NCBI RefSeq assembly: GCF_000203815.1
Contig: NW_004457624.1
Location: forward strand, 2,914,001 to 2,978,000
Direction of reading: 5' to 3'
Length of the DNA stretch: 64,000 nucleotides
Source: Cavenderia fasciculata
Taxonomy: Eukaryota > Evosea > Eumycetozoa > Acytosteliales > Cavenderiaceae
In this document: piece by piece, positions 11,804 through 44,727 of the stretch
How the letters are laid out: each line of letters starts with the position of its first letter
Numbering within the stretch: the first letter of the stretch is position 1
Translations under genes and position numbers: made by a program
Notes under the pieces: generated by a model
What the model was told of the DNA's origin: nothing
What the model saw: only the letters and a program-made list of their open reading frames with translations
The model's database searches: none

Positions 11804-11832
11804 GTTCCCATGGTTGGTTAGACCATGGGAAC
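11804..11832. repeat. Perfect 11-bp inverted repeat, 7-nt loop
   Basis: GTTCCCATGGT at 11804-11814 is the exact reverse complement of ACCATGGGAAC at 11822-11832, with TGGTTAG between. It is followed by an A15 run and then C/G-rich sequence that is unusual for the neighbourhood. No gene is attached to it, and I cannot say whether it is an RNA hairpin or a mobile-element end. Confidence 0.85.
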
Positions 11833-11895
11833 AGTCCAAAAAAAAAAAAAAAGCCCCCCAATGCGAAGAAAATCGACTTACACGGGGGCGAACCT

Positions 11896-12131
11896 GGGAA
11901 ACCCTCTGGGTAAAAGTAATTGAATATCTTTTTGTAAAGGAAACCACTTGGGTAAAAGTAATTGAATATCTTTTTTGGGGTATAAAAGCCTAGGGAGACG
12001 TGGAACATGGATGGACGATGATGGACTGGACAACGGACACGGACGATGGCAACGGACAATGTATAAAAAGAAAAGAGTAGGAAGAGGAGGGAAGCCACTT
12101 GGGTAAAAGTAATTGAATATCTTTTTTTAGA
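11896..12131. repeat. Three copies of a 40-bp direct repeat
   Basis: The unit GGGTAAAAGTAATTGAATAT with flanking GGAAACC...CTTTTT occurs at about 11896-11938, 11939-11980 and 12089-12131. The first two are adjacent. The third lies beyond about 110 bases that contain a GGAC(G/A)ATGG-type repeat. Confidence 0.85.
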
Positions 12132-12333
12132 AAAGAAGAGGATTGTAATTATTATTATTAAATTAGTTATTGCTGTTGGTTGTTGTAATTATTATTATTA
12201 TTATTATTATTAAGATGTTGTTATTACCAAAAGAGTTGATGAGAATAATGATTAGTGTACCTATAAAATAAAAAGAAAAAGAGTCAGTAAAATTATAATT
12301 AATTATCAACATTTGATACAGAGGAAGAGTTAA

Positions 12334-13290: not shown

Positions 13291-13474
13291 AAAAGAATGT
13301 GATTGTTGGTTGTTGAGTGATTAATTGGTAATTGAAAATTAAAAGGAATTGACACTGTGGATGAATTAAAAAATAAATAATTATCATTGTTGTCAGGAAT
13401 GAATGAATGATTTGATTGACATTGAGTATCACTTGAATTATAAAATAAAATGGTTGATTGATGGAAAGAAATAC

Positions 13475-13522
<48 letters not shown>

Positions 13523-13936
13523 GAATTGAATCAACATGGTTGAACAATGAGATTGGGATTGTGTTGTTGTTGTTGTTTAATGACACCTCCCTCTGCTCTT
13601 CTTCTTCTGCTAAAAGAAAATGGTGGTTGTGAAAATGATTAAAGAGTAATGGTGATGATCGACAATTGGTCGAAACATCAGGTGAATTAAATGAAATGTA
13701 CATGTTCAATGAGTGAATAAGTGAGGCTGATTCGTTGGGGTTATTTTTGTTGTTATTATTATTATTATTTGAAGATGGTGGAATGATTTGTGAATATTGA
13801 TTGTGAGTTGATTTTTGAATGTGGATTGTGGTGAGGATTGTATCACGATTGATTGGTGATGATGATGATTGTTGCTGTATTGTATGATTTGAATGAGTGG
13901 TTCCGAAACAGTTGAGAGAATCAAAATAATTGTTGG

Positions 13937-14000
<64 letters not shown>

Positions 14001-15455
14001 GGTATCTATAAAAATAAAAGAAGAGGTATCAGTAAAATGGTTTAAATTGTCAGAGCTTGTTACCGCGTTGTTGCTTTCTATTCTTGAGATGTTGCTGGAG
14101 TATCTTGAAAATGGGCTTGTCTTTGATCTGGTTGAATTGATTGTATTTGAAAATAAATATATTATATTTATGGATGTGTTTGAAGAGATAAAATAATCAG
14201 ATGAAAATGGAATAGGTGAAATCAATAATGATGAAAAATAGTTATTATTATTATTATTATTTGATTGATTATTAATTGGAATTGATTGATGTTTAACATG
14301 GTCTAAACATGTTAATGAATGTGTTCTGTTGTTGTTCAATTGAACAAACTCCTCCTCCTTGTCTACAAGAATGTGGTTGTTGGTTGTTGAATGAGTAAAA
14401 AAATCACTAGATTTAAAACATGGAATCAATGATTGATGGCCATTGAAGAATGAAATATTATTATCTATGGGAATTGAATGGTTGAAATATGAAACTGAGA
14501 TTGTACTGCTGCTGTTCAATTGAACAGACTCAGACTCCCTCTCCTGATCTAAAATAATATTGTTGGTGGTTGTTGAATGATTTGGTGATTGACAATGAAA
14601 CAAAACATCACTAGAGTTTAAGGGTAATTGAAAATGAGACAAAACATTTAAATTAAAATGAATTGAATTAAAAGATAAATTATTGTTATTATTATTAATT
14701 GAATGATGTTCAACATGGTTGAACAATGAGAATGTGGTTGTGTTGTTGTTTTTTTTGTTGTTGTTGTTCAATTGAACAAAGTCCTCTTCCTCCTCTAAGG
14801 TAAATGAAAATGAACTATGATTGTTGATGAGATTTGATTGATGGTTAACATTGAAACACGAGATTGAAATTGGACTGCTGTTGAAGTCCTCCTCTTCTTC
14901 TAAAATAATATGGTTTTTGGTTGTTGAATGATTTGAGATAAACAAAACATGGCTTGAGTTAAAGTGAATATTGTGTGAAAAGGATGGAAAACTAATTGGC
15001 AAAGCATTAAAAGGAATTGACATTAATGAATATAAATTATTATTGTTGTTGTTGTTGTTTTTGTTATAGACAGGAATAAAAGTATGGTTTGATGTTAAAT
15101 GACATTGATTTGAATTAAATTGGGTTGAAATAGATGAATCGATATTGTTATTATTATTATTAATATTATTGTTGTTGTTGTTTTTGTTGTTTTTGTTTTT
15201 GATAAGAATGATTGGATTTTCGAAATGATAAGATGATGATAATGAAACTGATGATTGATGATGCATCATCATAGACAAAGAAATATTTTTATTTTGGATG
15301 ATAATTGATTGTTGTTCAACATGGTCAAACAATGAAACAGATGATGACAATGTGTTGGTGTTGTTGACATAGACATATTGGTTGTTGCAAGACATATTGG
15401 CAAAAACGGATGATACAAGGATACACAAAATAAAGATGATAATTAATGGATTCAT
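13242..15455 (-). CDS. Asn-rich secreted protein with degenerate repeats
   Basis: 737 codons from ATG at 15455. The N-terminus is a clear signal peptide (MNPLIIIFILCILVSSVFA). The rest is Asn/Ser/His-rich with no known domain. A module recurs at least six times in degenerate form: a F(N/D)HVExxSI block, an Asn run, an IPCFxSSD-like block, then HSTTxNHI followed by an acidic cluster and VQLNNN. Long N runs come from GTT/ATT microsatellites, for example at 13934-14000 and 13475-13520. The module pattern argues that this is a real protein and not just translated microsatellite. Its function is unknown. It could be a cell-surface or matrix protein (inference from signal peptide only). Confidence 0.55.
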
Positions 15456-16215
15456 GATTGGATAATGAATGTAAAATAAATGATTTGATTTTTGATAGGT
15501 AGTAGTAGAAATGATTATGTTGCTGTAAGACTATAGATAGATGGTAGTAAGTAGAAAAGAAAAAAAAAAAAATAAGAGTAAGAGAAATGGTTAAAGTTTA
15601 AGAGTTTGAGTTGGATATAGTATAGAGAGGGTCAGAGAGAGAGAGAGAGAGAAAGAGATAATAGTATAACACTATTATAATCTGTATATCATACGATTTT
15701 TGAAACAAGTTTCATAAAAGAAATAAAATGATCAGTGCATAAATATAGAGTATGAGAGAAGTGAGAGAAGGTTGGTAGGGTATACCAAGAAACACTCGGT
15801 AATTATTTAAATATTTTTAATATTAGTTTGTGTGTGGGTAGTGGGGGGGTTTATATAAATCTAATACGCATAATTAATTTTCATTGCTGGATGATGATGG
15901 ATGAGTTTGTGGGGGGTGCATGTCTCACAGCCTGTCATCCTAAACGAGTTTGACTAAAAAGGAGAATGCAATCATCGCACCACCAATTAAATTAAATTTG
16001 ATGTTCATTGGCTGTCTGCCACACACTGTCACAGAAACTCTAACTATTGAGTGCACAAAGCAGCGTGTGTTGCAAGTTCAGTTGATTATGATTGATTGTT
16101 TGATTGCCTTTGTGTAGATGCAATAGTAAATACAATCTTTGAGAAAGATATATATATATATATATAATCATAAAAGAATCATTCATCTTTTAATTAATAT
16201 TATATTTTTTTATTA
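15456..16215. other. Intergenic region
   Basis: Upstream region of the Asn-rich protein gene and downstream region of karyopherin copy C. AT-rich, with GA and TA microsatellites (about 15635-15655 and 16150-16166). No gene seen. Confidence 0.6.
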
Positions 16216-27512: not shown

Positions 27513-27661
27513 GTAATACAGCATTACCAGTTTCTTATTGGGGAAAATGTTTGTTGAGGGATGGGATATACTATCTAATTGTTAATGAATCCTTTTTAGA
27601 AATGATCTCTGAATTTTTGTTACAACGTTGGGTTGCCCCAGGCCTCAAGAGCTACCTGGCC

Positions 27662-27667
27662 AAATGC
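27662..27667. repeat. Target-site duplication, left copy (AAATGC)
   Basis: AAATGC at 27662-27667 directly abuts the left end of the element. The same six bases abut the right end at 40541-40546. Six bases is the duplication length known for Polintons/Mavericks. Confidence 0.85.
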
Positions 27668-28298
27668 GTGTGTGGGTTGGGCGTTGGATCGCTGGTGCTC
27701 CCAAAAAAGTTTACAAGCATTCGCCCTTGCAGGGCTCATTATATATTAAATAAGTTAAAATAGTTAATTTATTTTTAGAAATATATATTTTTATTGTATT
27801 TTATTATTTTTGAGAATTAATTATTAACTTTTAATATTTTGGATAGAATTATAAAGGTTAAAAAAGTTAAGATTATTTTAGAAAAATAGAAAAATATTGG
27901 TTTGATTTTAGATTTTGGATTATAAATTCATAATTTTAACCATAATTGGATTGAAATTATATGCAAACATAGCTCATAGAAAATGGATCAATGGAAAAAG
28001 ATTGGTTGGCATCACAAGGTATTCCACTTCCATCACTATTTTGGATTATCAATTGTCCATCTAACATACAACAGATTCTACATGGATGGATAAATAAAGT
28101 TGGAGATTGTTTTTGGTATGTTGACACTGTGACTATTTGAATATTGGGAGGTCTAAATCTTTCAGGAATAATAATATCAGTGTATACTTCTGAAGCTTGA
28201 GCTGTTGCATGCATTGTAAAGGTTGGAGGTGAATCAACACACAGTGTAACTAGTTTACCAATTCTTACGATATGGATTTGGTTGTATGAATAAACATA
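27668..28298 (+). repeat. Left terminal inverted repeat
   Basis: Matches the reverse complement of 39913-40540 almost base for base, including the tip block GCATTCGCCCTTGCAGGGCT. A few substitutions and small indels occur near the tip and within the fibre-gene part. The repeat includes the last 115 or so codons of the fibre-like gene. Confidence 0.92.
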
Positions 28299-28925
28299 TG
28301 ATCCTCCAGATAGATTGTATTTAAATTGAACCCAGTGCGTATAATATTCATAGAAATCCAGTGGTGTTGGAATATAACCTGGAATTAGATTGACAAATGA
28401 TAACTGGTTTGTTTCTACAGATGGTGCATTGATAAATAATGATTTGATTGCTGCAATATTAATTGTTTCTCCAGTAGTTTTGTTTGTTGCAAGAGATTCA
28501 CACTCTATGTTGGCAATATCCAGTAATTGCATGCTAACCTTTCCATTTATTTCAAGATTATTTACTGTTGTTGTTCCATTAATAGTAATACCTACACCCG
28601 ATTGAGGAGTAATTGTATTTGTTTTCATTTCATTTGATTCAATTGATTTGTCGACTTTTAAACTATCACTAAATGTCTTGTGTCCATTAATTGTTTGATC
28701 TATTTCTGTCAATACCACTTGAGCAACCTTTTTTGATCCAATACTTGGTATGTCTATTGTAGATTGTGATGTTGTATCTACATTTAAAATTACTTGCAAA
28801 TCTCCAAAAATAATTTGATTTGTTGTGTTTTCCAGTACCAGTTGATCTGTAATTGTCAATTCATCAACTTGTCCAATGGCCACATCTTCAAATTCATTTA
28901 ATAAATCTACAAATCTTGCTGTCAT
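27957..28925 (-). CDS. Fibre-like structural protein of the element
   Basis: 322 residues. The N-terminal two thirds repeat beta-strand-like segments with the pattern of trimeric fibre shafts (LVLENTTNQIIFGDLQV, TINGHKTFSDSLKVDKSIES, GITINGTTTVNNLEINGKVS). The TINGxKTF motif is common in phage and virus tail-fibre proteins. The C-terminal part has several cysteines and could be the receptor-binding head. It lies inside the terminal repeat, so its C-terminal end exists twice in the element. Assignment rests on repeat texture only. The gene looks whole. Confidence 0.6.
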   Translation of the reverse strand: MTARFVDLLNEFEDVAIGQVDELTITDQLVLENTTNQIIFGDLQVILNVDTTSQSTIDIPSIGSKKVAQVVLTEIDQTINGHKTFSDSLKVDKSIESNEMKTNTITPQSGVGITINGTTTVNNLEINGKVSMQLLDIANIECESLATNKTTGETINIAAIKSLFINAPSVETNQLSFVNLIPGYIPTPLDFYEYYTHWVQFKYNLSGGSYVYSYNQIHIVRIGKLVTLCVDSPPTFTMHATAQASEVYTDIIIPERFRPPNIQIVTVSTYQKQSPTLFIHPCRICCMLDGQLIIQNSDGSGIPCDANQSFSIDPFSMSYVCI

Positions 28926-28964
28926 TTTTCTTTTTATATTAATTGTTAATCAATATTTAATATA

Positions 28965-29270
28965 TTACTTTTTTCTAGGTCCTCTTTTTCTCTTGGCTCC
29001 ACCATTAATTCCATATTGCGTTCCTCCAGCTTGTGTTCTTTTTCGTCTTGGTTTTTTTCCATAACCCAATTTGTCTGCAACCTCTCCAATCTTGCTAGCA
29101 TAAGGAACACCAGCATCACCAAGTGCCTTTGCTCCTCGTGATATTAATTTGTTTTCTTTTACAAAGTCGTATGCTTTTTTAAACCAATCTCCAAATCCAT
29201 CTCCTTGTTGGCCACCCAAACCTGTGTGAATACAAGCTCCATCATTTGAAATCCATACCCTTCTGCTCAT
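28965..29270 (-). CDS. Small basic virion-core-like protein
   Basis: 101 residues, with a Lys/Arg-rich C-terminus (KKPRRKRTQ, KRKRGPRKK) and an N-terminal half with GLGGQQGDGFGDWFKKAYDF. Small basic proteins in this position are common in Polintons and adenovirus-like elements, where they bind DNA inside the particle (family knowledge). The role here is inferred from charge and neighbours. Confidence 0.5.
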   Translation of the reverse strand: MSRRVWISNDGACIHTGLGGQQGDGFGDWFKKAYDFVKENKLISRGAKALGDAGVPYASKIGEVADKLGYGKKPRRKRTQAGGTQYGINGGAKRKRGPRKK

Positions 29271-29293
29271 TTTTTCTTTATATATATTTAAAT

Positions 29294-30073
29294 CTATATT
29301 TTAATTTCCAGTTGTAAATTGAAATCCTTTCTATAATCTCCATTTCTACTTGTGTAAAGAAAATGATATTTCTCTTTGGTTGAAAATGAATAAATCTCTA
29401 TAAATAATTTAAAAGGAATTGTCAGTGATAGTTCTTCATAAATGATTTTTAATGTTTCTGTTGGTATATTTTTAAATAGCAAAACATAATCCAAATTACC
29501 TTTTCGAATATGTGATGAAGTGTCTTTCCATGATTGAGTACTAATAATAATCTTGGTTGAAAAGTGTCTTTGAATCTTCATTAGTTTGGTAATACTTGGA
29601 TCTTTTAATTCATTTGATAAATCATCAAAAATAATTAAATAATCTGGTGCCACTTCTTTTTTTGATGATGATTTCTCTGCCACAATATTATTGGTCAATA
29701 TCAATGATTTACTATTTTCATTTGGTTTTACTTGTAAACTTTGAATAAATGCTTCCAACACATTTGCCTTGTCATCATAAATACTTGTAAATGCCATAAA
29801 TGTTATTCCTCTTTTATCCAAATCTTTTTGAATTTCCAACCAACTATGATCATTGTGAACTGTCGCACAAAAAATTAAAACATTGGTTTGTTTATTAGTA
29901 CATTCATCTATAATCTTTTTAATAACAACAGTCTTGCCACTATTCTTTGGAGCACATACCAATATATTTGCATTTAATTGATTAAATAATTCTGATCCTT
30001 TTACATTTTTTGGTGGTTGTGGTAATTTGATTGGTTCCACAATGACATTATTGATTTTTGTTAGCTTTATCAT
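29294..30073 (-). CDS. DNA-packaging ATPase (FtsK/HerA, A32-like)
   Basis: 259 residues. The Walker A motif is APKNSGKT near residue 38, preceded by a beta strand (NANILVC). The Walker B motif is YLIIFDD near residue 145. The order and spacing match the genome-packaging ATPases of Polintons, virophages and large DNA viruses, which drive DNA into the capsid. It stands between the small basic protein and the capsid genes, as is usual for the module. The gene looks whole. Confidence 0.85.
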   Translation of the reverse strand: MIKLTKINNVIVEPIKLPQPPKNVKGSELFNQLNANILVCAPKNSGKTVVIKKIIDECTNKQTNVLIFCATVHNDHSWLEIQKDLDKRGITFMAFTSIYDDKANVLEAFIQSLQVKPNENSKSLILTNNIVAEKSSSKKEVAPDYLIIFDDLSNELKDPSITKLMKIQRHFSTKIIISTQSWKDTSSHIRKGNLDYVLLFKNIPTETLKIIYEELSLTIPFKLFIEIYSFSTKEKYHFLYTSRNGDYRKDFNLQLEIKI

Positions 30074-30091
30074 TTTTATATATATGTTGAT

Positions 30092-30457
30092 TTAAAATTT
30101 GGTAAATTGAAATACAGCTGCAAATTCCAATCCATTTTCCAAATAATTGTTGTTTTGATCCACACATTCAAAATAATAAGCTCCTTGTATAATGGCTCCA
30201 CTTTTGTTTGTAAAATGTAAATTACAATTGGTGGTGGATATTTTTGAAAAGGAAAAAAGGTTGTTGTCACTAATCAATGAAGTTCTAATTGTGTACACAT
30301 CCCCAATATGAAGTGTTCCATCCAAACTATAGAGTTTTAATGTAATAAGATCTGGAACAAAATCTAAATTAATTTGAACCATCAACCTTGCATGACCACC
30401 AGGAATGATACCACTAATTGGGATTGTTTTAATAATTGTCTGTTTGTTGAATTTCAT
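30092..30457 (-). CDS. Small element protein of unknown function
   Basis: 121 residues, beta-rich, no motif recognised. It lies 18 bases upstream of the ATPase start on the same strand and has the same TATATA-type leader as its neighbours. Probably a minor virion component, by position only. Confidence 0.45.
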   Translation of the reverse strand: MKFNKQTIIKTIPISGIIPGGHARLMVQINLDFVPDLITLKLYSLDGTLHIGDVYTIRTSLISDNNLFSFSKISTTNCNLHFTNKSGAIIQGAYYFECVDQNNNYLENGLEFAAVFQFTKF

Positions 30458-30493
30458 TTTCCTATATATTATTTAATAATGAATAAATAATAT

Positions 30494-31824
30494 TTACATT
30501 AATGTCAATCCATTTGAAGTAATAACTAATCTTCTTTTACATACCACAGTTGATTGATGAGTAAGATTGGTTGCAACACTTAAAAATGCAATAAAATCCC
30601 ATTTAACCTCTCCTAGATTTAAATCAATACCAGAAACAATATTTTCATCTAACAAACCAAATGATCCATCATCAAATCTATCCAACCAACACCAATTATA
30701 GTTGTGAATATTTGGTGTTTGAATTGTTGAATCTATCAATTTGTCTCGCAATGCTTTATAATCATCATTTACAATTGGATAATAATCGTATTGCATTCGC
30801 CTTGTATTATTAATATTGGTGTAAAAATGTTCCAAATTTGTCGCAGCCACATTGTTGTTGTAGATGGCAGAGTTTGCAACTGAAGCAGTAACAAATAAAC
30901 TATGATAAATTCTTTCCAAAGTAATACCATTTAGTCTATTTAATCTTAATGATACCGGCTGATTTGTACCTGTAAGTGATGCTGTTGTAGTATAACAATA
31001 AGGAATAAGTAAAGAGAAACCTTCTGAGCTTGCAATCGTTGTAAATTTTGAATAATATCAAATCTCTTTTCAACTGCTAAATGTATTTCCATACCTTGTA
31101 CATTGGGTCCAGCAGGAGCAGTTAAAGCAACTGGGTTTGTTTGGGGAGTAAGAGAGGCATCTGCACCAAAACCAATATTTGGTAATTCTGACCAAACAAA
31201 TCTAACCAATAATGTTTCATTCAACATAATATCCTTGTCCAATGATAAAATGGATTCGTATAATTCGTTGAATGGAATGGTTACATTTAAATTAACTGCT
31301 GTATTGGCCGCAAAGCCTGAAGATAAATAGTCTGGTACAGTAAATGCTCTATCACATGAAGTGCCATCATATCTTGGATTCATATTTACCAAAGTGTTAC
31401 AAGAATAACAAGGAATATAAGATTGATTTGCTGTATTTACTGCAGAGTTGAAAGTGTTGAGTGTATTATTTAATTTTTTGTTGATCTTGGTCACCATTTA
31501 GAAATGTAAATGAAAGTTGGTATGATCCATAAAATATGTACCACCTCTTGTAAATACCTGTATCTGTCTAAAGAATGGAGTAAAATCTGTAAATACAAAT
31601 CCAAACTTGTTATTTGTTGCAGGTAATGTAAATGTAAATGAAAACCATGACCTACTTAAATTGAATGCTTTGGTTGGTGGTATTTCAAATATAGTGTCAT
31701 TTCCTCCTTGATAAACTGTTGTTTGAGTTGCACCAGCTTGAGGATATACTCTAGTGTATTCATATTGTGGTCCTGATCCAACCATTTGTCGATAATCAAA
31801 TTGATTTGAAATTGCTTGTTCCAT
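30494..31824 (-). pseudogene. Major capsid protein gene (fossil, broken)
   Basis: The region reads as a double-jelly-roll-type major capsid gene. The N-terminal part has the FNLSRSWFSFTFTLP block followed by aromatic beta-strand sequence. The middle and C-terminal parts are also beta-rich, as in Polinton-like virus capsids. This copy is broken, with about two breaks. Its size (about 1.3 kb) and its place between ATPase and penton-like genes fit the family. Identification is by motif texture and gene order, not by a database match. Confidence 0.65.
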
Positions 31825-31857
31825 TTTTTTAATTCTATATATTCTATATATCTAAAA

Positions 31858-32570
31858 TTAAATTTCATCAACAACTGTTAATGATTCTTTTTCTTTAACC
31901 AATAAATAATTTATATATTCTCTTACCAATTGTGAGATGTCATTATGTTTGAATAAAATCAATGTCAGATTGATATTTACACCATTTAAATTTACTTCAT
32001 TTCCATCTTGATCTGTCAAATAAATGGTAAAGCTTGTCTTTGTATTTGATACCAATTGTTTACTATATGATTCAACATCATAGTTTTGCCAATGAATATT
32101 TGAAAAATCTGCATTACCAGCTGCAGAATAAACCTCTTGTAATATATCATCATCTCCATTGCTACATAAATCTGAATGAATAAACAATACATTGTCAGAT
32201 TGTAAGTTGATTACATTGGTTGATTCCAAAATATTATTCTTGAATGGATTTTTTGAATCTTTATTAAAACCTAAATGACGAAATAATTGATTAGTAAAAG
32301 AAAAGATTGGTTGAATATCTCTTGTTGATGCACAAGTAAAAATATATTTACCAGTATTTGGTTGTTGTGATGTCGGCCAACCGATTGCATACTTTACATT
32401 GTTTGGTGACAATGCATTCAATTGCTTTTCCAATGTGTCTTGCAATGATTTTCTTGAATAATTACCAACAGGGATAGAAATAATAGTTGATTGATCATCT
32501 TCTATCAATTCAAAAGTATTTAATCCTCTTCCAACTGTATAAAATGATTTTGGTATTGTCGCTTGTAATT
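31858..32570 (-). pseudogene. Penton/minor capsid-like protein gene (fossil)
   Basis: The region encodes a beta-rich protein with STNVINLQSDNVLFIHSDLC, a block typical of the single-jelly-roll penton proteins of Polintons and virophages, and an N-terminal part with a GNYSRKSLQDTLEKQLN helix. It is next to the capsid gene on the same strand, as in related elements. The beginning of the gene appears degraded in this copy. Confidence 0.6.
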
Positions 32571-33271
32571 ATGCAACTCTGTCAAATCTGTCTTGAGGAT
32601 AATATATAATATTATATTTAAATTTAGAATTAGTACCACTGATTCTATTATGTGAATTTATATAGAATATTTTTTTATGTGTAATCAACATACTTTTATA
32701 TATAATTAGTAAAACATTATTATAAAATTATTAAAATTTACTATTACTCTAATAAAAGTGATTTGCTGTCGCTATTTTGTCTTTAAATAAAGTAGTGAAA
32801 AAGTATTATAAAAGTAGTGTAAAAATAGTAATATAATAAATTACTCTATATATATATAATAAAGAGAATGGATCAAGATATAAAAAAAGATAAAAGATCA
32901 ATTACATCTGCTCTAAATCTAAAAAAAGCACGTGATGCGAGAAAAAATCAATTATAATCTATGATAGTGATTCGGATTCGGATAATGATTCTGATAATGA
33001 TAATACAAAGAAAAGAATAAACAACAAAGCTACTGTTAAAAAGAAAAGAATAGTAATAGATAATAATAAAAAAGACTTTGAACAAATGAATAAAAAAATG
33101 GAATCTCTCATTGAAATGTTCATCAACAAAAAAATAATTTAATTGTAAATGATGAAGTTGTAGAGAAAGAGATAAAACAACAACCTATAAATAGTATTAA
33201 AGAATCAGATATTATAAAGAATAAAATGATTATGAAGTTTTAAATATAATTATATTGTATAATAATACAAG
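32571..33271 (+). other. Divergent promoter region and degraded small gene
   Basis: Between the minus-strand virion genes and the plus-strand gene at 33272. AT-rich to about 32860, including TATATATATA shortly before 32869. A Lys/Asp/Ser-rich coding-like stretch follows to about 33240 and is broken. No function can be given. Confidence 0.4.
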
Positions 33272-33988
33272 ATGATGATTGGAGGTAAGAAGCAAAAACA
33301 GAGACCATTAAGATTAAAAGATAAAAGAGGACGATACATACAACATGGAGTAGATAGAGTTTACATTAGATCAAAAAAGAATGATAAAAAATTGATTAGA
33401 AAGTTGATTAGAGAAGCATTAGATGATGAGAGGAAACAACAACAGCAACTCTCTAAAGAAAGCAGCCCTGTATTGGCTTGGTCAAATCCAAATGAAGTTG
33501 CCATGATCAAATCAATACAGGATGCCAACTTTAGAGAGTCTGTACTCAAGAATCAACAAGAATTGGATAAAGAAACAAAGAAAAAGATTATTGATCTAAC
33601 AAAAGATGATATTCAAGTAAAACAAGAGATACCAATAGTAAAAAAAGAAAATGATAGATTTGATCAATTGGAAAAGAGATTGTCAATGTTGTTTGAAGCA
33701 AAGGAGGAGAAATTAAAGAGAAGACAAGAAAAAGATGATAGATCAATGGAAATACTTTACAATCAAAAGTTGACAGAAAAGAGAATACAAGAATTGGAAG
33801 GCAAGTATGAAAATACAAGACAAATAGATGAACAATTACAATCAATTATAGATATGAACAATGAAATGAAAGAAAAGAATCTTTTGGAATTGGAAAGAAC
33901 AATTCAAGCAAATCAAGTAAATCAAGCAAAACAAACAGAACAGCAACAAAAGATTGGTGGAAGATCAAAGGTCTTTATGATAGAATAA
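33272..33988 (+). CDS. Coiled-coil, charged element protein
   Basis: 238 residues, rich in Lys, Glu and Gln. Long heptad-like helices span about residues 115-220. The N-terminus is basic (GGKKQKQRPLRLKDKRGRYI), which would suit DNA or RNA binding. The ATG is preceded by an AT-rich leader as for the other element genes. No known domain. It lies on the opposite strand to the virion module. The gene looks whole. Confidence 0.5.
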   Translation: MMIGGKKQKQRPLRLKDKRGRYIQHGVDRVYIRSKKNDKKLIRKLIREALDDERKQQQQLSKESSPVLAWSNPNEVAMIKSIQDANFRESVLKNQQELDKETKKKIIDLTKDDIQVKQEIPIVKKENDRFDQLEKRLSMLFEAKEEKLKRRQEKDDRSMEILYNQKLTEKRIQELEGKYENTRQIDEQLQSIIDMNNEMKEKNLLELERTIQANQVNQAKQTEQQQKIGGRSKVFMIE

Positions 33989-34489
33989 TTAATCTCAAAA
34001 TTTCGCTATCATAAAGTAAACAAAGTTATTGATCAAGCATCAAACATGTGGTTTGCTATTAATAGATACAATGGTATACCATTTTAAAGAATCAAGTTTG
34101 ATTAATATAATATTAATCTTTATTTGTATTATTTTGTGATAGATCAACCATAGCTATCATGATTCTTTTCATAAAATTAAATAAACTTAAATATTAACAA
34201 AGTTCCATTGCTTTTTACTTGATACAATGAAGAACTTTGGCACGAATGATTAGAGGCGGTCCGTTTTCCCAACCACTGTTGAATGAATCGATGTTGGTCC
34301 ACCACTTTTAATAATCCATTGATTATTGATACACCGCTTCCCCAAAAAATAATAATAATATAGCACTTCCATCCACACTGCTTCAAAATCCATTGATTTG
34401 AAGCGCCACACTTTCAACCCACTTATATTGGTTCTACTTCTTGTTGATTCAATAATTTATTTAAATTTGGTCCACCAATTAATACCAAT
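33989..34489. other. Non-coding stretch in the element
   Basis: No gene seen. A perfect short palindrome, GATTAATATAATATTAATC, lies at 34100-34118. It could be the terminator shared by the two convergent genes on either side (inference). Confidence 0.45.
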
Positions 34490-37400
34490 ATCTATTCACT
34501 CTTTGAAACAAAAAAATCGAGAAGTTTCAAATTGTTGTTGTTGTTGGTTATCTCGTCCAAATATACAATAAACTGGTTATTGAAAGATTCTTTGTTGACA
34601 TTTAAACGTCGATCGGCTATCCACAAAAAGTTTGTTTTGGTACCTGGGGGTAACATTCTTTTAATTAAACCAAATATTTCGGAATCCTCCCATTCGTTCT
34701 TGTGTGTAGCCGCAACGGTGACCTGACATGCAGTGAGGACAGGTCCGTCCACAAGAAGAAGTCAACATGTGGAAAGTTGGAGGCCGATGGTACGATAATC
34801 TCGTTATATGGTGAACCCCAACGGTAAGCTTTGAGTTTGTCTGTTTTGAGTTTCTGTGCTTCAAGACCTTGCCAGTCCATCCCAGTTGATAAAAGTTTTG
34901 TCACATTCTCCTCTTTTTTGTAATCGATATTGTAAAACATCTTTGAACATGATATTTTGAAAGCTTTTGCTTCAATAATAGAGTCAATAATGTATTTCTC
35001 TACAACTCTGCCGCGGAGATCCTCTGTAAACTCCAAACTGTTTCTGAAAATAAGGTTATAAAAATGATCGAGTAACTCTTTATACACAACAGAACCCATA
35101 TAACGCTCCTCAAGTATACTTTCCGCTACTTTTGTAATACCATAAACATGTTTGTCTTTGACAAACATAAGTTGTTGGTTAATGAAGTGTGGGGGTTCAA
35201 TAGGAATCTAATAGAGAATCAGGTAAATATAAATATCGTACGATGAATATTTTTAAATAAATACTATACCTTTAATGCCATTGCTACTACTGATCTGGTA
35301 AAAGATTTTAGGTCTTCTGGGTCCTGTAAGTATTCTTTGCGATAGAAAATGTCTAATGGCCCGATTTGTGCGGATCTTGCAGCATCGAAATTGTCGAGTG
35401 ACAGGATGATATCATCGTTGTTGATGTATTTTTTGGAGGAAAAAGGTCCTTCCAACTGTTTGATCCAGATCGACAGATCTAATCTAGAAAGTAGTACCAA
35501 AGTTGGTTAGCGATTATTTGTTATAAATATAAAAAGAAGCCTATCTTACGGGATAAAGTTTGTATAAAGATTGACAGTTTCAAGGTCATCTTCAGACACA
35601 ATGACATTATGTATGCCCAAGTATGCCAAACACTCTTCTTTGGTGAAGCCATCACAAAATTGGAAAACAGGCCAAGATTCTTTATGAGCGACTGTGAAAT
35701 AATAGTTATTATTTGCTGATGCAGACGACACAACCACCATTTGGCCATATGTTTCCATAGCTCCAGCAAGATAGCTTTCAATGATGCAATAGGGGGACTC
35801 TTTTCTTTGTGAATCTGTCAAGCCATTGTGTTGATCGAAAACCCAATACACTTGATGTTCAGCATCCAACCACAATTTTGTGGCCTGGGTGATGAGTTCT
35901 TTCAATGAAGCAAGTGATTGTGGAATAGTCTGGCTACACAAAAAATTAGAGAGTGTAGAGTCTTGGGCAAATGAGGCAGCATGAACCATTGAGGATATCA
36001 GGAATGAATAGGCATTGTTCGATTCTGCCCATCCCTGGCAATCAGGGATATATATCACGATGTTTTTGGGCTTCAGTCGAAGCAGATATACTGCTTGATA
36101 GATTGAATGAGATTTTCCGAATCCTTGTGGACCTTGTATGTACACCCCTCTCTTGCAATCTCTGGCAGAAGAGGAAATGAAGTCTTGAAGCTTTTTTGAG
36201 ATGCCTCTGTCCACAATCTTGACTTGTTTTTCATTAAAGGAAAATCTGCCTTTGTGGATTGACTTTGAAAAAGAGTCTTCAGGGATAGAGTATGCTCCCC
36301 CTGAACTATTGAAGTATCCAATAACTCTTCGCTTCTTTACAGTTTCAACTATTTCCTGATCTTGATAGTATACTAAGAAAGCAAGAAATTAGTAAAACAC
36401 TAGTTATTATTGATCGTTTGACTTACATTGTTCACCAACAATGACTTTTTTTTTTTTTTTGTTGCCTTGGCACTCCAGGAATTCGAGTATTCTCTTTTCA
36501 GACACTAAAAGGTTTGCAACAAGAAATAAAAGAAAAAGAAAAAGAAAACAAAGAATGGTTAGATATATTGCAGTAAAGGTAAATGAAATGTATTTAAAAT
36601 TGTTGCCTATGTGGAGATGAGGCAAGTGGTTAAAAGGGAAAAGAGATGGGAGTGGGGATAATGAAAACCAAAAGATAATCAACAAGAAATGGTTTAAAAA
36701 GAGGAGCAATGATAGTGATTGTAACATCTGATAGAAATATGAATGGTGATTGGTTGATATAATAATTATAATTATATTAGGAATGGTTGGAGATGGATTG
36801 ACCAACAACAATGAGGCAAATGTTTAGTGTTTGGTTGGTTCGACAATGGTTAGAAGTACAATGGGGCAAGTGGGTAAAAGGAAAAGATGGGTAATTGGTA
36901 ATGAATAGATTAAAAGAGCTGGGTGGTGCATTGATGAATAAAAACCAAAAGATAATCAACAGAAATGGCTTAAAAAGAGGAGCAATGATAGTGATTTTTT
37001 ATTATCTGATGAAACAAGAAAGTATTGTCCACTGGATGTGAATCAAACCAACAAACAAAAGGTGGAGGGATTTTAGTGAATATAGCCAGTGATATTAATG
37101 GTGATTGGTTGATAATATTAGGAACGGTTGGAGATGGATTGACCAACAACAATGAGGCAAGTGAAGGGCCTGTAATATGAGAGCAAACAAAGCAAAACAA
37201 AATGACTAGATTTGAATGATGGTGATTGGTTGGTGTAGCAATTAGGTATGTTTGACAAAAGTAGTGGATAAGATGGAAAAAGAGATGGGTGATAAAAATA
37301 AAAGGATGTAGAGCGATAGAGAGTGGTGTAGCTTGGTGAATGGACAATGGTATTTGATTTGGATCAAAGGATTATAAATATATCAACGAACACAAGAGGT

Positions 37401-38685
37401 CAATGATATGTAAAGATGAACAAGCAAAACTAAATGACAAATGTTTGGTTGTACAACAATGAAGCAAGTGGTTAAAAGGAAAGAGATGGGTGGTGCATTG
37501 GTAATGAAAAAAAAAAGATAATCAAAAGAAATGGTGCAAAAAAGAGGAGCAATGATAGTGATTTTTAATTATTTGATGGATATAGGAAGTGTTGTTAACC
37601 GGATAGGTGAGTGAAACAAACTAATAAAAGGTAGAGGTTTTGAGTGTCCAGTGATATTAATACTGGTTGATAATATTAGGAATGGTTGGAAATGGATTGA
37701 CCAACAACACTGAGGCAAGTGAAGGCCTGTAATGTGAGAACAAACAAACAAAACAAAATGACTAGATTTGAATGATGGTGATTGGTTGGTGTAGCAATTA
37801 GGTATGTTTGACAAAAGTAGTGGATAAGATGGAAAAGGAGATGGTTGATAAAAATAAAAGGTTGTCGAGTGATAAAGAGTGAGTGTAGCTTGGTGAATGG
37901 GCAATGGTATTTGATTTGGATCAAAGGATTATAAATATATCAATGAACAAAAGGTCGATGATATAAAATATGAACAAACAAAACAAAATTGCAAATGTTT
38001 AGTGTTTGGTTGGTTCGAAAGTGGTTAAAAGGAAAGAGATGGGTGGTGCATTGATTGGTGATGGTGTTTGGTTGGTGTAAGAAATAGACTGGCCAATAAT
38101 GAGGCAAGTGTCAAGTGGTCAAAAGGAAAGGAGATGGGTGAAAAAAAGGTAATAGTTGAAAGAGGAGAATGTAGTGCAATATCCGATGGAATGTTAAAAT
38201 GGAAACAAAAGTTGTTGATAAAATATAAATTTAATGAAATATGAATAAAATTGTGTTTATATTACCTTGAGGAGCATCGGCTGGAGTACCTAACAAAAAA
38301 AAAAAGAGAGGAAATTTAGTGTCCACACACACATATTGATTTGGGATTAATTTGTACATACTTTTCGTGAGCTTTTCGATTGATTCAAGAAGAGAATAGG
38401 CAGAACCATCTTTGAATTTATAGGGACCGTCTGACTGAGTTAATCTTGCAAAGGTAAGATTTTTCAAAAACTGCCCTTTGATGGATTGATCTTTCAATGC
38501 TTGAGCATAGTCCTCCCCATCGGATTGATTTTTTGCCCATCCATACACTTCTTCAATATTCCACTGTTCCCAAGTCTTTGATTTGTCCTGTATAGGGTTG
38601 GGATTGTCTGAAACAAAAAAAATGGTCAATTTCTTATTAATAACTATTTTTGTTCCAAATATAACTTACGAGTGCCAGACATTTG
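34490..38685 (-). CDS. SAM-like/P-loop ATPase/nuclease-like gene (Crinkler-RHS type)
   Basis: A multi-exon minus-strand gene with about seven exons and GT-AG introns. The N-terminal exons (about 38685-38363) encode a SAM-like helical domain (WNIEEVYGWAKN). A 24-base exon lies near 38290-38267. After a long intron the main exon (about 36373-35548) has a Walker A motif, GPQGFGKS, and a Walker B-like VYWVFD. The last exons (about 35215-34492) contain a VDFFLWTD segment and a QVTVAATHK segment, as in the restriction-endonuclease fold of Crinkler/RHS proteins. These families are known as secreted or mobile-element-linked effectors. Here the gene lies wholly inside the capsid-bearing element. It looks nearly whole, with about one break. 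Function is unproved. Confidence 0.6.
36600..38230. repeat. Tandem repeat of about 560 bp in the long intron
   Basis: 37091-37410 and 37653-37965 are about 90% alike, both containing TGATTGGTTGGTGTAGCAAT and TTTGATTTGGATCAAAGGAT. Shorter blocks such as AAAGAGGAGCAATGATAGTG recur at about 36700, 36980 and 37545. Partial units extend from 36600 to about 38110. Open frames through it are shadows. Confidence 0.85.
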
Positions 38686-39300
38686 TTCTTCTTTTGGTGG
38701 TTGAGTGTTAGAGTACAAGAGATAATATATGAATTAATGTCAAAGAAATAAGGATAAAAAGGCAATAAATGAGCAAATGTGGTAAGGAATGTTATATGGC
38801 GGATATATATTTATAAATTAAAATACTAGGAGTGAAAAAAGAGAGGGAATGAATATATATGTACAAGATACTGGTGTCTCTTTAACTGATGAATAGATAA
38901 ATATGAAATATATGAATAAATGGCAAAAAAAAAGAACAAATAAAAGGTATCAGAAATACATAATAACACTGCTGCTGCTGATTCTGCGGTATGGTGCTTC
39001 TATCATCAGACTCCAAGAAAAAAAAATATTATATTATAATTATTAAAAAAATGGTGGTTTTATTTTATATAAATAAAAATCATTAGAATGTCTAATGGGT
39101 GAGTGATGATAACACAAGACTTTAATATTAGGGTTGATGGTGTGATTAACAGATGACTTGAACCACAACACCACCAGTAACTAAAGTAAAGCAAAGAGTA
39201 TCATGATGGGGTGGTGGGGGAATCTGACGAATGACAATCATGTGCAAGACGAATATGAGTGGTTAAATAGAAGATAGATGCATAGTTATCATTACTTACC
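38686..39300. other. Non-coding stretch in the element
   Basis: AT-rich, no gene seen. It is probably the promoter of the SAM/ATPase gene and the remainder of the transcript that starts at 39600. Confidence 0.4.
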
Positions 39301-39600
39301 TCTACTGCTGCTGTGTTGATGCGATAGCGATTGTTGTTGCTGCTGTTGTTGTTTAATTAAAAGTTGTTGAACAGCCAGATAGAGCTTCTTTGCAGGTGCT
39401 ACGACTATGCCACATTTACTAAAATCAGCCTCTGTAAACACTGCGATACTTTCTCCATCTACATCATTATCAAGAAGCATCTGGGCATATTCTTCTCTTA
39501 CTTGAACTTCTTTTGTAGCCCATTCTTTTACTTGTTTTGCTGACCATCGTTTGAAATCGCTTTGTGATGCAATTTCTGTTATTGTCTTGGCATTATACAT
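39301..39600 (-). CDS. Second SAM-domain exon, orphan
   Basis: 100 codons starting MYNAKTITEI with WSAKQVKEWA, a typical SAM start, through VAPAKKLYLAVQQLL, then a Gln run. It ends at a good donor (GGTAAGT), but no downstream exon is obvious. It may be a short SAM-only gene or an alternative 5' exon of the ATPase gene next to it. SAM domains form homo- and hetero-oligomers, so the pair could assemble together (inference). Confidence 0.5.
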
Positions 39601-39912
39601 GTTATGATTAAAAGAGATGCCGTGAGATAATAGAAAACATGATGTTGTTGTGATGGATACTTTGTCTTATGTGAACAAAGATTAGTACTACTAAAGAGGG
39701 TAGTCTTCTATTATAGATAGAGGTCCTATATATTCAGCTCAACTTTGAACGATAACAGCAATTTATATTTAATATACCAACATTCTATGATGACAATAAC
39801 ATTCAACCTATTACATACAACATTGATAATCAATGTTTTGTCTATTGTAATTGCTAGAACCACTCTCACTAAAGCATTCTCGTTTATCATCCAATCCATG
39901 TTATATTTCAAC

Positions 39913-40540
39913 TTTGTATGTCTATTCATACAACCAAATCCATATCGTAAGAATTGGTAAACTGGTTACACTCTGTGTTGATTCACCTCCAACCTTGACA
40001 ATGCAAACTACAGCTTCAGAAGTATATACTGATGTTTTTATTCCTGAAAGATTTAGACCTCCCAATATTCAAATAGTCACAGTGTCAACATACCAAAAAC
40101 AATCTCCAACTTTATTTATTCATCCATGTAGAATCTGTTGTATGTTAGATGGACAATTGATAATCCAAAATAGTGATGGAAGTGGAATACCTTGTGATGC
40201 CAACCAATCTTTTTCCATTGATCCATTTTCTATGAGCTATGTTTGCATATAATTTCAATCCAATTATGGTTAAAATTATGAATTTATAATCCAAAATCTA
40301 AAATCAAACCAATATTTTTCTATTTTTCTAAAATAATCTTAACTTTTTTAACCTTTATAATTCTATCCAAAATATTAAAAGTTAATAATTAATTCTCAAA
40401 AATAATAAAATACAATAAAAATATATATTTCTAAAAATAAATTAACTATTTTAACTTATTTAATATATAATGAGCCCTGCAAGGGCGAATGCTTGTAAAC
40501 TTTTTTGGGACGCCAGCGATCCAACGCCCGACCCACACAC
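39913..40540 (-). repeat. Right terminal inverted repeat
   Basis: Reverse complement of 27668-28298. On the plus strand it reads the last 110 or so codons of the fibre-like protein (IHIVRIGKLVTLCVDSPPT to the stop at 40252), without the rest of that gene. The tip GTGTGTGGG is at 40532-40540 on the minus strand. Confidence 0.92.
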
Positions 40541-41290
40541 AAATGCGCCAAAGAATTCCACATTAGGTTACACTGTATAGATAGAATATCTTTTCTTTCT
40601 GGCCGAATCGTAGGGACGGGGAAGCTCGAGAGATTCCCCCAACATTCAATATTCCCAGCCAACCACAGTGTAATGACCGAGGTAGCCCAACGCTGCATTC
40701 TACCCCTCTATGGAGACAAGATTTGGAAACGTCAGATCTCTCTCTATGTGTCCTACCCATCATTGCGTCGATGTTGCCAGGATCTCTACTTTTTAAATGA
40801 ACTCGATCACATCAAAATCAGCGTTCCCTTTGAACAAGATCCACTATTTGGGATTTGTCAAGAACAACACCGTAGAATTTCATTAGAGCAAGCAATCAAT
40901 AATACTTCTACAAAGGTTAAACAAAGACATGATGGACAAGAAGAGGATTCAGAGGAAGAGGAAGAGGAAGAAGAAAATGATGATCAAGAAGAAGAGTATG
41001 ACGACAAAGAGGAGGAGGAACAATATTATAAAGAAAACAAACAATACACCAAAAAAAGATCTCCTACTCCTCCATCTCCACCTATGCAAAAGGTTTTGAG
41101 TAAAATGCAACCCAAAGTTATAAAAACCACCAATATAATTCCACCTCCTTCTTCTTCTTCTCCTTCTTCTTCATTTCCTACTCCTCCTTCACTTCCTCTT
41201 CCAGTATCTAAAAAACCTGAACCAGATCTGGCACATCTAGATGCAACACAAATTTCCCAATTGTTCCAACAATTTGAATCAAATTTTTGA
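40541..41290 (+). pseudogene. PKGFD-family gene, 3' half, split by the element
   Basis: Begins with the second AAATGC, which is the right copy of the target duplication. It then continues the family sequence: KEFHIRLHCIDRISFLSG, QHSIFPANHSVMTEVAQRCIL, then an acidic stretch, a Ser/Pro stretch and a stop at 41290. The intact relatives have KKFSIELHLLDGHPFLRG and QSIFPAYPRVMAECVRRCIL at the same places. The half-gene is open to the stop, which argues for a recent split. Confidence 0.8.
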
Positions 41291-41575: not shown

Positions 41576-43143
41576 TTAATAATAATGATGTTTTGGTAAA
41601 TTATCTTTTGGAATGTTTTTGTCAACAAAAGGATGTTGTTGGTGTTGTGATTGCTGAATAAAATGTGGGCTAGGTTTGTTGTTGAAATTTTGTTGATTAC
41701 TTTGTGGCAGTAAAGGTATCGATTGTTGATGAGAGTAATGGGGTGCATCTGATGTAGGGATTGATGGTGGTGGTGGTGGTGGTGGATAACTATGGTGATT
41801 GTATGGTGGGTATCGTGGAGGAAGGGGGTTTACCGGTATGGAACTTGGTGGAGGAAGTGTTGGTTGAGAATATGGCATTTGATTTGATTGGTGATTAGGG
41901 TTGGCTTGTGGTCGCTGTTGATCAGGTAATTGGTTTGATTGGTGATTAGAGTTGATTTGAGGTCGTTGTTGATGATCTGTGAGTCTTTGTTGATCTGGCA
42001 ATTGATTTGGTTGGTGGTTAGGGTTGATTTGTAGTCGTTGATGGTCTGACATTTGTTGGTTGATTTGGAGTCGTTGTTGTTCTGATATTTGTTGGGTGAT
42101 TTGTTGGGTGATTTGGCTTTGCAGTGCAATAAATTGTTGTTGGAAAAATTGCATCATCGAACTGCTTTCCATAAGTTGTTGATTTACAGTTGGTGTTGTT
42201 GTTGTTTCTATTGTTGGATCTGGATCTTTGGTCTTGCTGTCTGCAAGTTTAGGTGAGCTTGTTTTTAATAGTTTGGATGGTCGTTTTTTCTTTTTCGTTT
42301 CTTCTTGTTGGTCCTCTTGTTCTTCCTCGTCATCATCATCATCATCATCATCATCGTCCTCGCTATTTTCTTCGTCTTGGTCATCTTCATCATCTTGTGT
42401 TTTGGTGGGAATGGGGAAATCGTTGTGGATGGCTTTAAAGAGTGGTGTATCTGGCTCGCGCTCGCGGCAGATTCCGTAGAGCGGATCGTCCTTTGAAAGA
42501 TCGGCAAGAGATATGTGGCGCTTTTCCTTGAGGTAGTTGAGGTCTTGGCAGGTTCGTCGGAATGTGGGATAACATACATAGAGAGAGACTGATCTTTTCC
42601 AACAACGGTCGCCATGCATTGACAATATACAGCGACGGGCGCACTCGACCATCACACTAGGGTAGGCCGGGAATATAGATTGATCGGGAGACTGAAACTT
42701 ACCAGTACACACAATATGGCCTGACAGAAAGGGAAGGTCATCCAACACGTGCAGCTCTATCGAGAATATCTTGATACATTTCTCTAGGTACGTCTCGACG
42801 CCACGTACCTTGGGACGCTTGATCAAGTGATCTGCGAGCATCACTAGTAAAGATTCATTGACAATGAGATGATATATATTCTTGATTTTAATACATTTGC
42901 CAAAATCTGATACTGCTATCGTTGATGTCCCTATATTTAATAAAAGAATGAAGAAGAAGAAGAAGAAGATAAACAATATTAGTCATTGATCAAGCTGTGT
43001 GTGTGTATAAATATTTGAGTAAACCAACCCGATGACTTTACTTCCACGACATCAAATCCCTTTGGAGGTGTTGATTGTCTCATATTGCGTTCATTTACTA
43101 TTTTTTGTATTGTAAGTGTTTTTAAACTATTTTTTTGTTGCAT
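41576..43143 (-). CDS. PKGFD-family protein, copy 2
   Basis: Two exons: 43143-43029 (MQQKNSLKTL...TPPKGFDVVEVKSS) and 42930-41576, with a GTTGGT donor and an ATAG acceptor. The conserved core, in the first 170 or so codons of exon 2, runs FGKC, YHLIVNES, YLEKCIKIFSIELHVLDDLP, QSIFPAYPSVMVECARRC, RCWKRSVSLYVCYP, DPLYGICRER. Six or more Cys and the paired Cys/His suggest a folded, perhaps metal-binding, unit, but I recognise no known domain. An Asp/Glu run follows, then a Lys patch, then a long Gln/Asn/Pro tail. It could be a nuclear protein (inference from the tail only). Confidence 0.65.
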
Positions 43144-43311
43144 CGTTTTAACGTTTCTATAATATTGTTGATTAATGTCCAATATTATGAACAAATAAGT
43201 CTATAATAAAATAATAAAACTAAAAAAACAATCTGTATGTACTTGAAAACATCTCAATGATAGATTGTTGTTGATCACGAACTAGTCGAGGGCAAATTGA
43301 AAAAATTTTGG

Positions 43312-43327
43312 GGCGATATATATCGCC
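43312..43327. repeat. 16-bp perfect palindrome
   Basis: GGCGATATATATCGCC lies in the 380-base gap between two PKGFD genes, followed by CTCAGAACATTGGG. A related CGCCTCAGAA occurs at about 63440. No other feature is seen in this gap. Confidence 0.85.
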
Positions 43328-43520
43328 TCAGAACATTGGGCTCAAAAAAATATATGTTCGAAATCGAGCCAGGGTTACCTGAAGATACTCAAGATCACAA
43401 ATGATTGTTTGTGTTGATCAAAATAGAATTATAATTTATTGGTATTTAAATTAATTGTTTACAATTTCAGAGATGAATGAACAAATATTAAGATCACGAG
43501 GACAAACAATGCGCTGTTTG

Positions 43521-44727
43521 TCACCAAGTCATTGGCATTTGGCTGAATTGATTATATTGATGTTGGTCAGCATGTTGTTGTTGTTGTTGTTGAGGTTGTT
43601 GTTGAGGTTGTAGATTAAATTGGTGGAGTTGTTGTTGATTAATTTGAAGTTGGTGATTCAGATTAGTTGTGAGTTGGGCAATTTGTTGTTGCATTTGAAG
43701 GAATTGTTGTTGCATTTGAAGGAGTGGATTATTTTCATTCTTGGGTTGAGGTTTTTCCTTTTCCTCCTCTTCGTCCTCCTCCTCCTCTTCTTCTTCATCT
43801 TCCTCTTCCTCTTCCTCCTCCTCCTCCTCCTCCTCCTCTTCACCCTCTTGACCCGAATTCATTTGGTTTGCCATGGCTCTGGCTATGTCAATGTCACTCC
43901 TTCTTTCGTGGCAAATGCCCGAAAGAGGATCATCAATTGCATCTGAATGTTCGGGTGTTGGCAGCTGGCATCTCTTCATTAAATAGGATACATCGAGGCA
44001 AACCCTCCCCATTTCAGGGTAAGAGACATACATTGGGATAGATCTTCGAAGGCAACGTTCTGGATGGAGGGATAGGATGCATCGACGAACGCATTCAGCC
44101 ATGACGCGTGGATAGGCGGGGAAGATTGATTGGTTGGGGTCTCTGAAAATGCCACAGCATATGATCTTGCCTCTTAAAAAGGGATGGCCGTCCAACAGGT
44201 GCAGCTCGATCGAGAACTTCTTGATACACTCTGAGAGGTAAGTGTGATATGGACCTAGGTAGGAGGAGCCCTTTTTCATGGAAGCCAGGTGGTCTGCTAA
44301 TAACCCGAGCCAGTACTCGTTGACAATGAGATAATATTGGGAACCGATTTTAGCACATTTGCCCACATCCGATTTACTAAGGTGATCTATTTATAAAATA
44401 AAAATAATATTATCAGAGTCGAGAGAGATACAAAAACATTGTAAGTAAAAAAAACGTTTGATTTGATTGTGTCGAAATTTGGTATTATCATATTTAAATA
44501 TAAAAGTAATTACTTTTTTTTTTTGTAAAACATTCCATCATGTCGAAACCTTTTGGAACTTCACGAGAGGATGCAGATGTTTCTGATGTTGGAGATACCT
44601 TTTTCTCCTTTTTAATTGGTATGTCAGCAGCTACCATCTTTTTGGGTTGTGTTGAAAGTACTCTTAATCTCTGGTTCCTTTCTTTAATAATAGCAGCTGA
44701 TTTTTTAGTTTTTAATATATTTGTCAT
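43521..44727 (-). CDS. PKGFD-family protein, copy 3
   Basis: Exon 1 is about 44727-44511 (MTNILKTKKS...VPKGFDMMECF), with a GTAATT donor. Exon 2 is about 44388-43521, starting DHLSKSDVGKCAKIG. The core matches copy 2: YYLIVNEY, SECIKKFSIELHLLDGHPFL, QSIFPAYPRVMAECVRRCIL, RCLRRSIPMYVSYP, DPLSGICHER. A long Glu run follows and then a Gln-rich tail, replacing the Asp/Lys/Gln tail of copy 2. The core is therefore conserved and the tail free to vary. Same strand as copy 2, about 380 bases upstream of it. Function unknown. Confidence 0.65.

Follow-up and report, generated by a model that had tools for sequence, protein, structure and literature searches.

Polinton proteins of Cavenderia fasciculata (= Dictyostelium fasciculatum) and of P. 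pallidum appear in the trees of a 2013 study whose figure 1 legend names both species (PMC3671162), and those of D. fasciculatum are listed again in the open text of two papers of 2015 (PMC4642659 and PMC4409740). Other open texts describe major capsid proteins (MCPs) from Evosea, the phylum of the dictyostelids (PMC10120064), and 6-base duplications as the typical product of RVE integrases (PMC12220804). Since Polinton proteins of this species were in print in 2013, C. fasciculata is not a new Polinton host, and a first-pass annotation of the locus considered here was mistaken in treating dictyostelids as unfamiliar hosts. What is new is a variant with exchangeable Crinkler-like cargo. It is represented by a capsid-bearing element of 12,873 bases in a stretch of 64,000 bases (C21:2914001-2978000, here called the window), which we compared with further copies in the 31.0-Mb genome, searched as 21 contigs (C1 to C21). 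We consider it probable that this is a Polinton-derived, capsid-encoding, non-autonomous element that is mobilized in trans and whose Crinkler-like cassettes are exchanged through recombination within the repeats of an intron.

The family shares with the Polintons of D. fasciculatum and P. pallidum the species, the RVE integrase, the ATPase, the capsid module, the long inverted ends, and the 6-base duplication. Unlike those Polintons, the form in the window has no integrase, PolB, or helicase and no complete protease, and it carries SAM and Crinkler-like genes. The cargo resembles the Crinkler-RHS (CR) proteins (PMC5289972) in joining a variable header to an NTPase-nuclease or nuclease-kinase C terminus; unlike them, it has SAM-like headers, not the ubiquitin-like Crinkler domain, and the gene lies inside a capsid-bearing element. 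The same source associates the Crinklers of P. infestans with helitrons, and Crinkler genes of probable oomycete origin are described beside a giant-virus insertion in Phytophthora in the open text of PMC8204020. Among the listings and open-text passages that our literature search covered, none links a Crinkler cargo to the Polintons of dictyostelids. The protist-protecting endogenous virophages (PMC10945749) are likewise small, integrated, capsid-encoding elements with a possible benefit to the host cell; unlike those, the element here has no known giant-virus helper, and the window form is without replication genes of its own.

The element spans positions 27668-40540 of the window. Its inverted ends align as one pair over 631 bases at 96.8% identity (or, split into two segments, over 499 bases at 99% and a further 99 bases at 93%), and AAATGC flanks it on both sides. 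Duplications of 6 bases were found in three of the four copies with both outer ends readable (the window, C13, and C8; not C11), those of C13 (CCTCTT) and C8 (GTTGGT) being read by eye; they rule out an 8-base duplication (CAAATGCG), which had been possible from the window alone. When the host flanks are joined with one AAATGC, they read as 323 uninterrupted codons, of which the initial 23 fall within a T-rich stretch; this frame aligns without a gap at the junction to relatives at 41576-42841 (85/172 residues, 49%) and 43521-44279 (64/170 residues, 38%). The element therefore interrupts a coding exon. There is no N anywhere in the window. The precise borders, the inverted ends of about 630 bases, the flanking AAATGC, the insertion inside a host gene with nearby relatives, and the positions of the capsid and ATPase genes, all put forward in the first-pass annotation, are confirmed by these data. 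Two observations belong here: positions 41576-44279 hold a local family of host genes akin to the interrupted one, whose products have long tails rich in acidic residues and glutamine, and a solitary terminal-repeat fragment (C13:352699-353067) lies in inverted orientation half a kilobase from the complete C13 copy.

With respect to the features of Polinton/Maverick elements, the window copy has the long terminal inverted repeats, the 6-base duplication, and an A32-type packaging ATPase (Pox_A32, 26.2 bits against a cut-off of 22.8). It gave no match for an RVE integrase, which is above the cut-off in C8, or for a protein-primed DNA polymerase B (PolB), and of a C5-type cysteine protease it holds only remnants, the protease-like C terminus being gone except for a 32-residue relic at 34013-34084. 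With integrase, polymerase, and helicase all unmatched and the protease-bearing protein reduced to remnants, the window copy is not a classic Polinton; it is a decayed, broken copy of an element. The Polinton identity proposed earlier holds for the family, given the RVE integrase with chromodomain and the 6-base duplication of C8, and fails for the window copy as a classic Polinton. Similarly, the earlier reading of the gene content was right about the capsid module and missed both the absence of integrase, polymerase, and helicase and the Crinkler-like cargo of the right half.

In five copies, all with capsid genes (the window, C13, C11, C1, and C9), no integrase, helicase, or PolB match was obtained, and the place of these three genes is occupied by SAM-like genes, pyrimidine-rich repeats, and a Crinkler/RHS-like gene. 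We refer to this arrangement as form B. One strand between the capsid module and the terminal repeat holds a constant SAM-domain frame (SAM1), a second header, the repeats, and the Crinkler-like gene. SAM1 and the cargo share a strand in all nine arms in which both were read (the window, C13, C11, C7 at 856-860 kb, C1, C2, C14, C7 at 1807-1812 kb, and C13 at 521 kb); neither SAM1 nor a terminal repeat was found in the C9 copy, and the arm at C12:654 kb has no room for a cargo. The 25 SAM1 matches merge into 21 places; 14 of these have a terminal repeat no more than 3 kb away, and 15 have element repeats no more than 4 kb away, counts that took in 28 of 29 terminal-repeat matches and 26 of 82 element-repeat matches. 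The element-repeat matches left out include those of a dispersed family at 71-72%. At 11 places (C21:2981557, C21:1082542, C14:3219698, and others), near-equal matches of 71-72% to about 230-260 bases of the element repeats probably represent this other family. At 35500-39500 TRF did not report a tandem array, which means that the divergence or irregularity of the repeats is beyond that program. Constraint on SAM1 is weak, with 50 synonymous against 70 nonsynonymous differences summed over 21 pairs.

Eleven arms hold eight different cargoes. Three are found in two arms each (the window and C13; C11 and C7 at 856 kb; C1 and C13 at 521 kb), and five in single arms (C9, C7 at 1807 kb, C2, C14, and C20 at 111-114 kb, the last from match positions only). 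When eight cargo slots were compared, DNA similarity was seen in 1 of 28 pairs, the window and C13, at 99.7%. The second headers vary as well: among six compared, none of the 15 pairs was alike at the DNA level, and the header of the window, 99.5% identical to that of C11, has no DNA match in five other copies compared. SAM_PNT scored above the cut-off in two of six second headers scanned (C13 and C14), and no match to the ubiquitin-like Crinkler N-terminal header was obtained.

The C9 cargo is a single open frame of 516 amino acids (aa) with 12 matches in all. They comprise two proteins of Acytostelium (48% and 35%) together with metagenome and fungal proteins; among the fungal ones, one is named as Crinkler family and another has a Crinkler N-terminal domain. 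It aligns along its length with Crinkler-like proteins, with invariant P-loop residues and a nuclease-like motif set by eye. The window cargo has a DAP3 P-loop match above the cut-off, its other NTPase matches being weak, and the C14 cargo has DUF6826 above the cut-off and, by eye, a kinase-like stretch; PADLOC matches were weak and confined to one of 10 cargo pieces. With three cargoes as queries, 27 genome places were detected, including the three queries themselves. Eight of the 27 (6 of 24 without the queries) are near SAM1 or a terminal repeat, the chance of a random place lying near SAM1 being 0.9%. Eighteen are away from elements, if C9 is counted as within an element by its capsid genes; an example is C1:1384055, which is 56% identical to the C9 cargo and has no stops. 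Crinkler-like genes are thus also ordinary host genes.

The genome also contains a second form, A, best represented by the C8 copy (C8:848167-864322), which is about 16 kb long and has terminal repeats, its own 6-base duplication, and recognized genes in long open frames. These encode a helicase (578 aa; DUF5906 above the Pfam cut-off), an integrase (370 aa; RVE and Chromo both above their Pfam cut-offs, with PDB matches to PFV integrase and HP1), a protease-like protein (481 aa; Peptidase_C5 below the cut-off, E 0.011), and a capsid module (a probable minor capsid protein of 302 aa, an MCP of 448 aa, an ATPase of 263 aa, and a fibre-like protein of 336 aa). A 646-aa frame is a probable PolB; it had no polymerase match in Pfam, NCBIfam, or PDB, and a DNA_pol_B_2 family search matched nothing in this genome or in 14 control genomes. 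DNA queries for the ATPase, terminal repeat, and minor capsid gene matched at least 14, at least 29, and at least 19 pieces of the genome, respectively. The PolB and integrase queries matched six places each, none of them in the window, C13, C11, C1, or C9. On C7 (851 kb), a helicase gene stands beside a terminal repeat whose first 30 bases are those of C13 and C11, and a rearranged copy at C18:1590001-1606000 has a broken integrase and PolB adjoining capsid-module genes 88-96% like those of the window; there must therefore have been a form A lineage closely related to form B. The region C7:848173-860411 itself appears as nested or fused copies, with two cargo fragments and the helicase gene beside its own terminal repeat.

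Comparison of form B copies reveals mosaic relations. The window and C13 copies occupy different target sites, and their terminal repeats are 88-92% and their capsid-module genes 94-99% alike, yet from about 33.96 to 37.17 kb they are near identical, with 8 mismatches in 2981 cargo bases versus 58 in 2549 bases of the capsid-ATPase stretch (Fisher p 1.7e-12). The right edge of this tract is a sharp fall at 37168, within the repeats. The window and C11 are 96-100% alike in the header block (37.8-39.2 kb) and differ in their cargoes. The reverse holds for C11 and C7 (856 kb), which have a common cargo (99% in the NTPase piece, 73-100% in other stretches) and different second headers.

The repeats are probably an intron between header and cargo. 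A donor, [AC]AG|GTAA, lies at the end of the second header in 8 of 8 arms, picked from one to six candidate GT sites per arm, and an AG acceptor in phase 1, mostly after a pyrimidine tract, precedes the cargo exon in the same eight, which represent six distinct cargoes; C9, outside the eight, has two candidate acceptors, one in phase 1. Because NAGGTAA with N not T occurs 25 times in these arms (55,655 bases), a donor taken singly is weak evidence, and the common phase of the acceptors and the position of both sites at the repeat edges weigh more. A G|GTAAGT at the end of SAM1 (9 of 9 ends, preceded by AG in eight and by TG in C2) was rejected as proof of splicing because the copies are alike by descent and an annotated protein, P0035 (109 aa), ends nearby.

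Nonsynonymous/synonymous ratios per site were calculated for pairs of form B copies (the window, C13, C11, C1, C9, and C20, the last counted with form B although its cargo side was not seen). The ATPase ratio was 0.07-0.20 (6 pairs) and that of the fibre-like gene 0.14-0.33 (5 pairs). For the MCP gene it was 0.17-0.28 among the window, C13, C11, and C9 (6 pairs) and 0.39-0.75 in pairs with C1 or C20 (9 pairs), and for the minor capsid gene 0.06-0.31 among the window, C13, C1, and C9 (6 pairs), rising to 0.36-0.72 in the 9 pairs that include C11 or C20. The protease-bearing protein gave 0.05-0.76 (13 pairs). The range for the 124-aa protein was 0.25-1.03 (9 pairs); four of its values approach 1, three of them from pairs with C9, whose match is broken. 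The capsid-module genes have thus been under constraint for much of their history, though not demonstrably in form B.

We propose the following model. Two forms coexist: form A, with a helicase, an integrase, a probable PolB, and a protease-like protein in addition to the capsid module, and form B, with similar ends and the same capsid module, in which a SAM gene, a variable header, the repeats of the probable intron, and a variable cargo, a Crinkler/RHS-like NTPase-nuclease or kinase-like gene, stand where A has its helicase-integrase-polymerase block. Form B would be copied, packaged, and inserted by form A enzymes acting in trans on end sequences common to both; mobilization in trans is the simplest explanation that we can offer. 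Recombination in the shared repeats would exchange cargoes while keeping header and cargo spliced in one reading phase. As a guess from its protein family, the cargo would most likely attack nucleic acids, as a weapon or defence to the advantage of the element or of its host cell.

The window copy is decayed, and it might simply be an ordinary autonomous Polinton from which integrase, polymerase, and helicase disappeared once it had inserted, and which captured Crinkler-like genes by chance. Broken replication-module pieces do stand beside capsid genes in C18 and C12 (130-140 kb), the latter also with element repeats. However, the replacement recurs at many sites with the same SAM1 and repeats, in the same place and on the same strand and with different cargoes, and the window and C13 copies are complete end to end, each with its own duplication; we regard simple decay as unlikely. 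Somewhat less likely still is a self-sufficient form B, in which the NTPase-nuclease or unrecognized genes drive replication and insertion. Such a scenario draws on the P-loop NTPase-like sequence in most cargoes and on several form B frames without a known family, but the cargoes vary between copies, one (DUF6826, by eye kinase-like) is not NTPase-like, 18 of the 27 cargo-like places are away from elements, and the 6-base duplication fits the form A integrase. The occurrence of Crinkler-like genes away from elements could also be taken to mean that a host Crinkler cluster was invaded by Polinton pieces, or that the locus is an assembly chimera; this is very improbable, as in both the window and C13 terminal repeats and a perfect duplication enclose the capsid module and cargo together, with no gaps.

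Several aspects of the data weigh against a trans-mobilized, cassette-swapping element, which we nevertheless favor. Every form B copy examined has broken genes, which weakens the case for mobilization in trans; C11 has no target-site duplication, and the arms of C14 and C7 (1812 kb) have no full capsid module alongside. Since the copies are related, counts of like copies are not independent. A double and a single jelly roll would be the folds of Polinton capsid proteins, and here the capsid fold is presumed from a database name and from context: the MCP has relatives in Tieghemostelium, Acytostelium, and metagenomes, besides the open 448-aa relative in C8, and the UniRef name of one of them (P0001) starts with "Major capsid protein N-termina." Searches of Pfam, PHROGs, and PDB gave nothing informative for the capsid protein; scans of viral contigs returned no relatives for the C8 capsid protein, the capsid alignment A1, or the C8 PolB frame; and the predicted model of the minor capsid protein piece (pLDDT 33.7) was too low for use. 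The constraint on the form B capsid genes may come from form A ancestors, and the PolB-like motifs of C8 were recognized by eye only. The broken copy on C12 (130-140 kb), in which a PolB remnant and a protease-like gene occur together with capsid genes and element repeats, is possibly an intermediate or a recombinant, and it is compatible with loss after insertion. Several cargoes are distant protein relatives of each other (the window and C2, 31-43%; C11 and C7 at 1807 kb, 37%; C9 and C20, 29%). As for the intron, splicing is a prediction, donors and acceptors were chosen by hand among candidates, and only four of the eight arms have a phase-1 donor with no stop in between (the window and C11, which have one common header, C13, and C7 at 1812 kb); that of C7 (856-860 kb) is in phase 0, a stop precedes that of C1, and the frames of C2 and C14 are insecure.

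Table. Features of the window copy and of the interrupted host gene (window positions)
Feature	Position	Strand	Basis
Host gene split by the element; its coding sequence runs up to 27667 and resumes at 40547	27513..41290	+	
Left target-site duplication, AAATGC	27662..27667	.	sequence
Left terminal inverted repeat, 631 bases; contains 3' end of fibre-like gene	27668..28298	+	
Fibre-like protein, 322 aa, open; BppL_N match below cut-off	27957..28925	-	
Small basic glycine-rich protein, 101 aa, open; conserved at DNA level in C13, C11, C7, C8	28965..29270	-	
Packaging ATPase, 259 aa, open; Pox_A32 above cut-off	29294..30073	-	
Conserved 121-aa protein, open	30092..30457	-	
MCP gene, broken by one stop and one frameshift	30494..31836	-	
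Gene, interrupted by one stop, of a probable minor capsid protein (judged from position and by eye)	31858..32724	-	
Remnants of a protein that has 131 aa in C8	32862..33240	+	
N-terminal part of the protein whose C terminus in C8 is protease-like	33266..33988	+	
Crinkler/RHS-like cargo gene, several open pieces; 99.7% identical to C13	34492..36388	-	
P-loop NTPase piece of the cargo gene	35546-36388	-	
Pyrimidine-rich repeats (coding strand), common to element arms; probable header-cargo intron	36480..38100	-	
Variable second header, SAM-like (SAM_Ste50p below cut-off)	38231..38665	-	
SAM1, constant frame of 102 aa with a SAM domain, next to the terminal repeat; SAM_2 above cut-off	39292..39600	-	
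Right terminal inverted repeat, 624 bases; contains second copy of fibre gene 3' end	39917..40540	-	
Right target-site duplication, AAATGC	40541..40546	.	sequence

Away from the element, GC skew is strongly positive over a long stretch of the window, positions 10001-16000 (0.2 to 0.64 per kb), in contrast to most of the remainder.

Phage satellites such as P4 are dependent elements with one exchangeable conflict-gene slot, a defence hotspot. Form B would similarly be a dependent element with one such slot; unlike P4-type satellites, it is eukaryotic, keeps capsid genes, and apparently exchanges its cargo in an intron. More tentatively, and as a possibility that we hold to be less likely than not, Polinton-derived capsid elements may be both vehicle and workshop of the dictyostelid Crinkler-type genes. 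Header and effector exons would be swapped in a repeat-filled phase-1 intron, and the new pairs would serve in conflicts with rival viruses or cells, making these elements a eukaryotic counterpart of phage-satellite defence hotspots.

The question served by these data is how Crinkler-type proteins spread and diversify across eukaryotes. A single genome offers the same capsid-bearing chassis, eight Crinkler-like cargoes, and a visible exchange tract, so that the mechanism can be tested by transcripts and by strain comparison. A Polinton relative without replication genes but with shell genes also bears on whether Polintons are viruses that have satellites of their own. In conclusion, our findings suggest that such elements shuffle weapon-like Crinkler-type genes around the amoeba genome.

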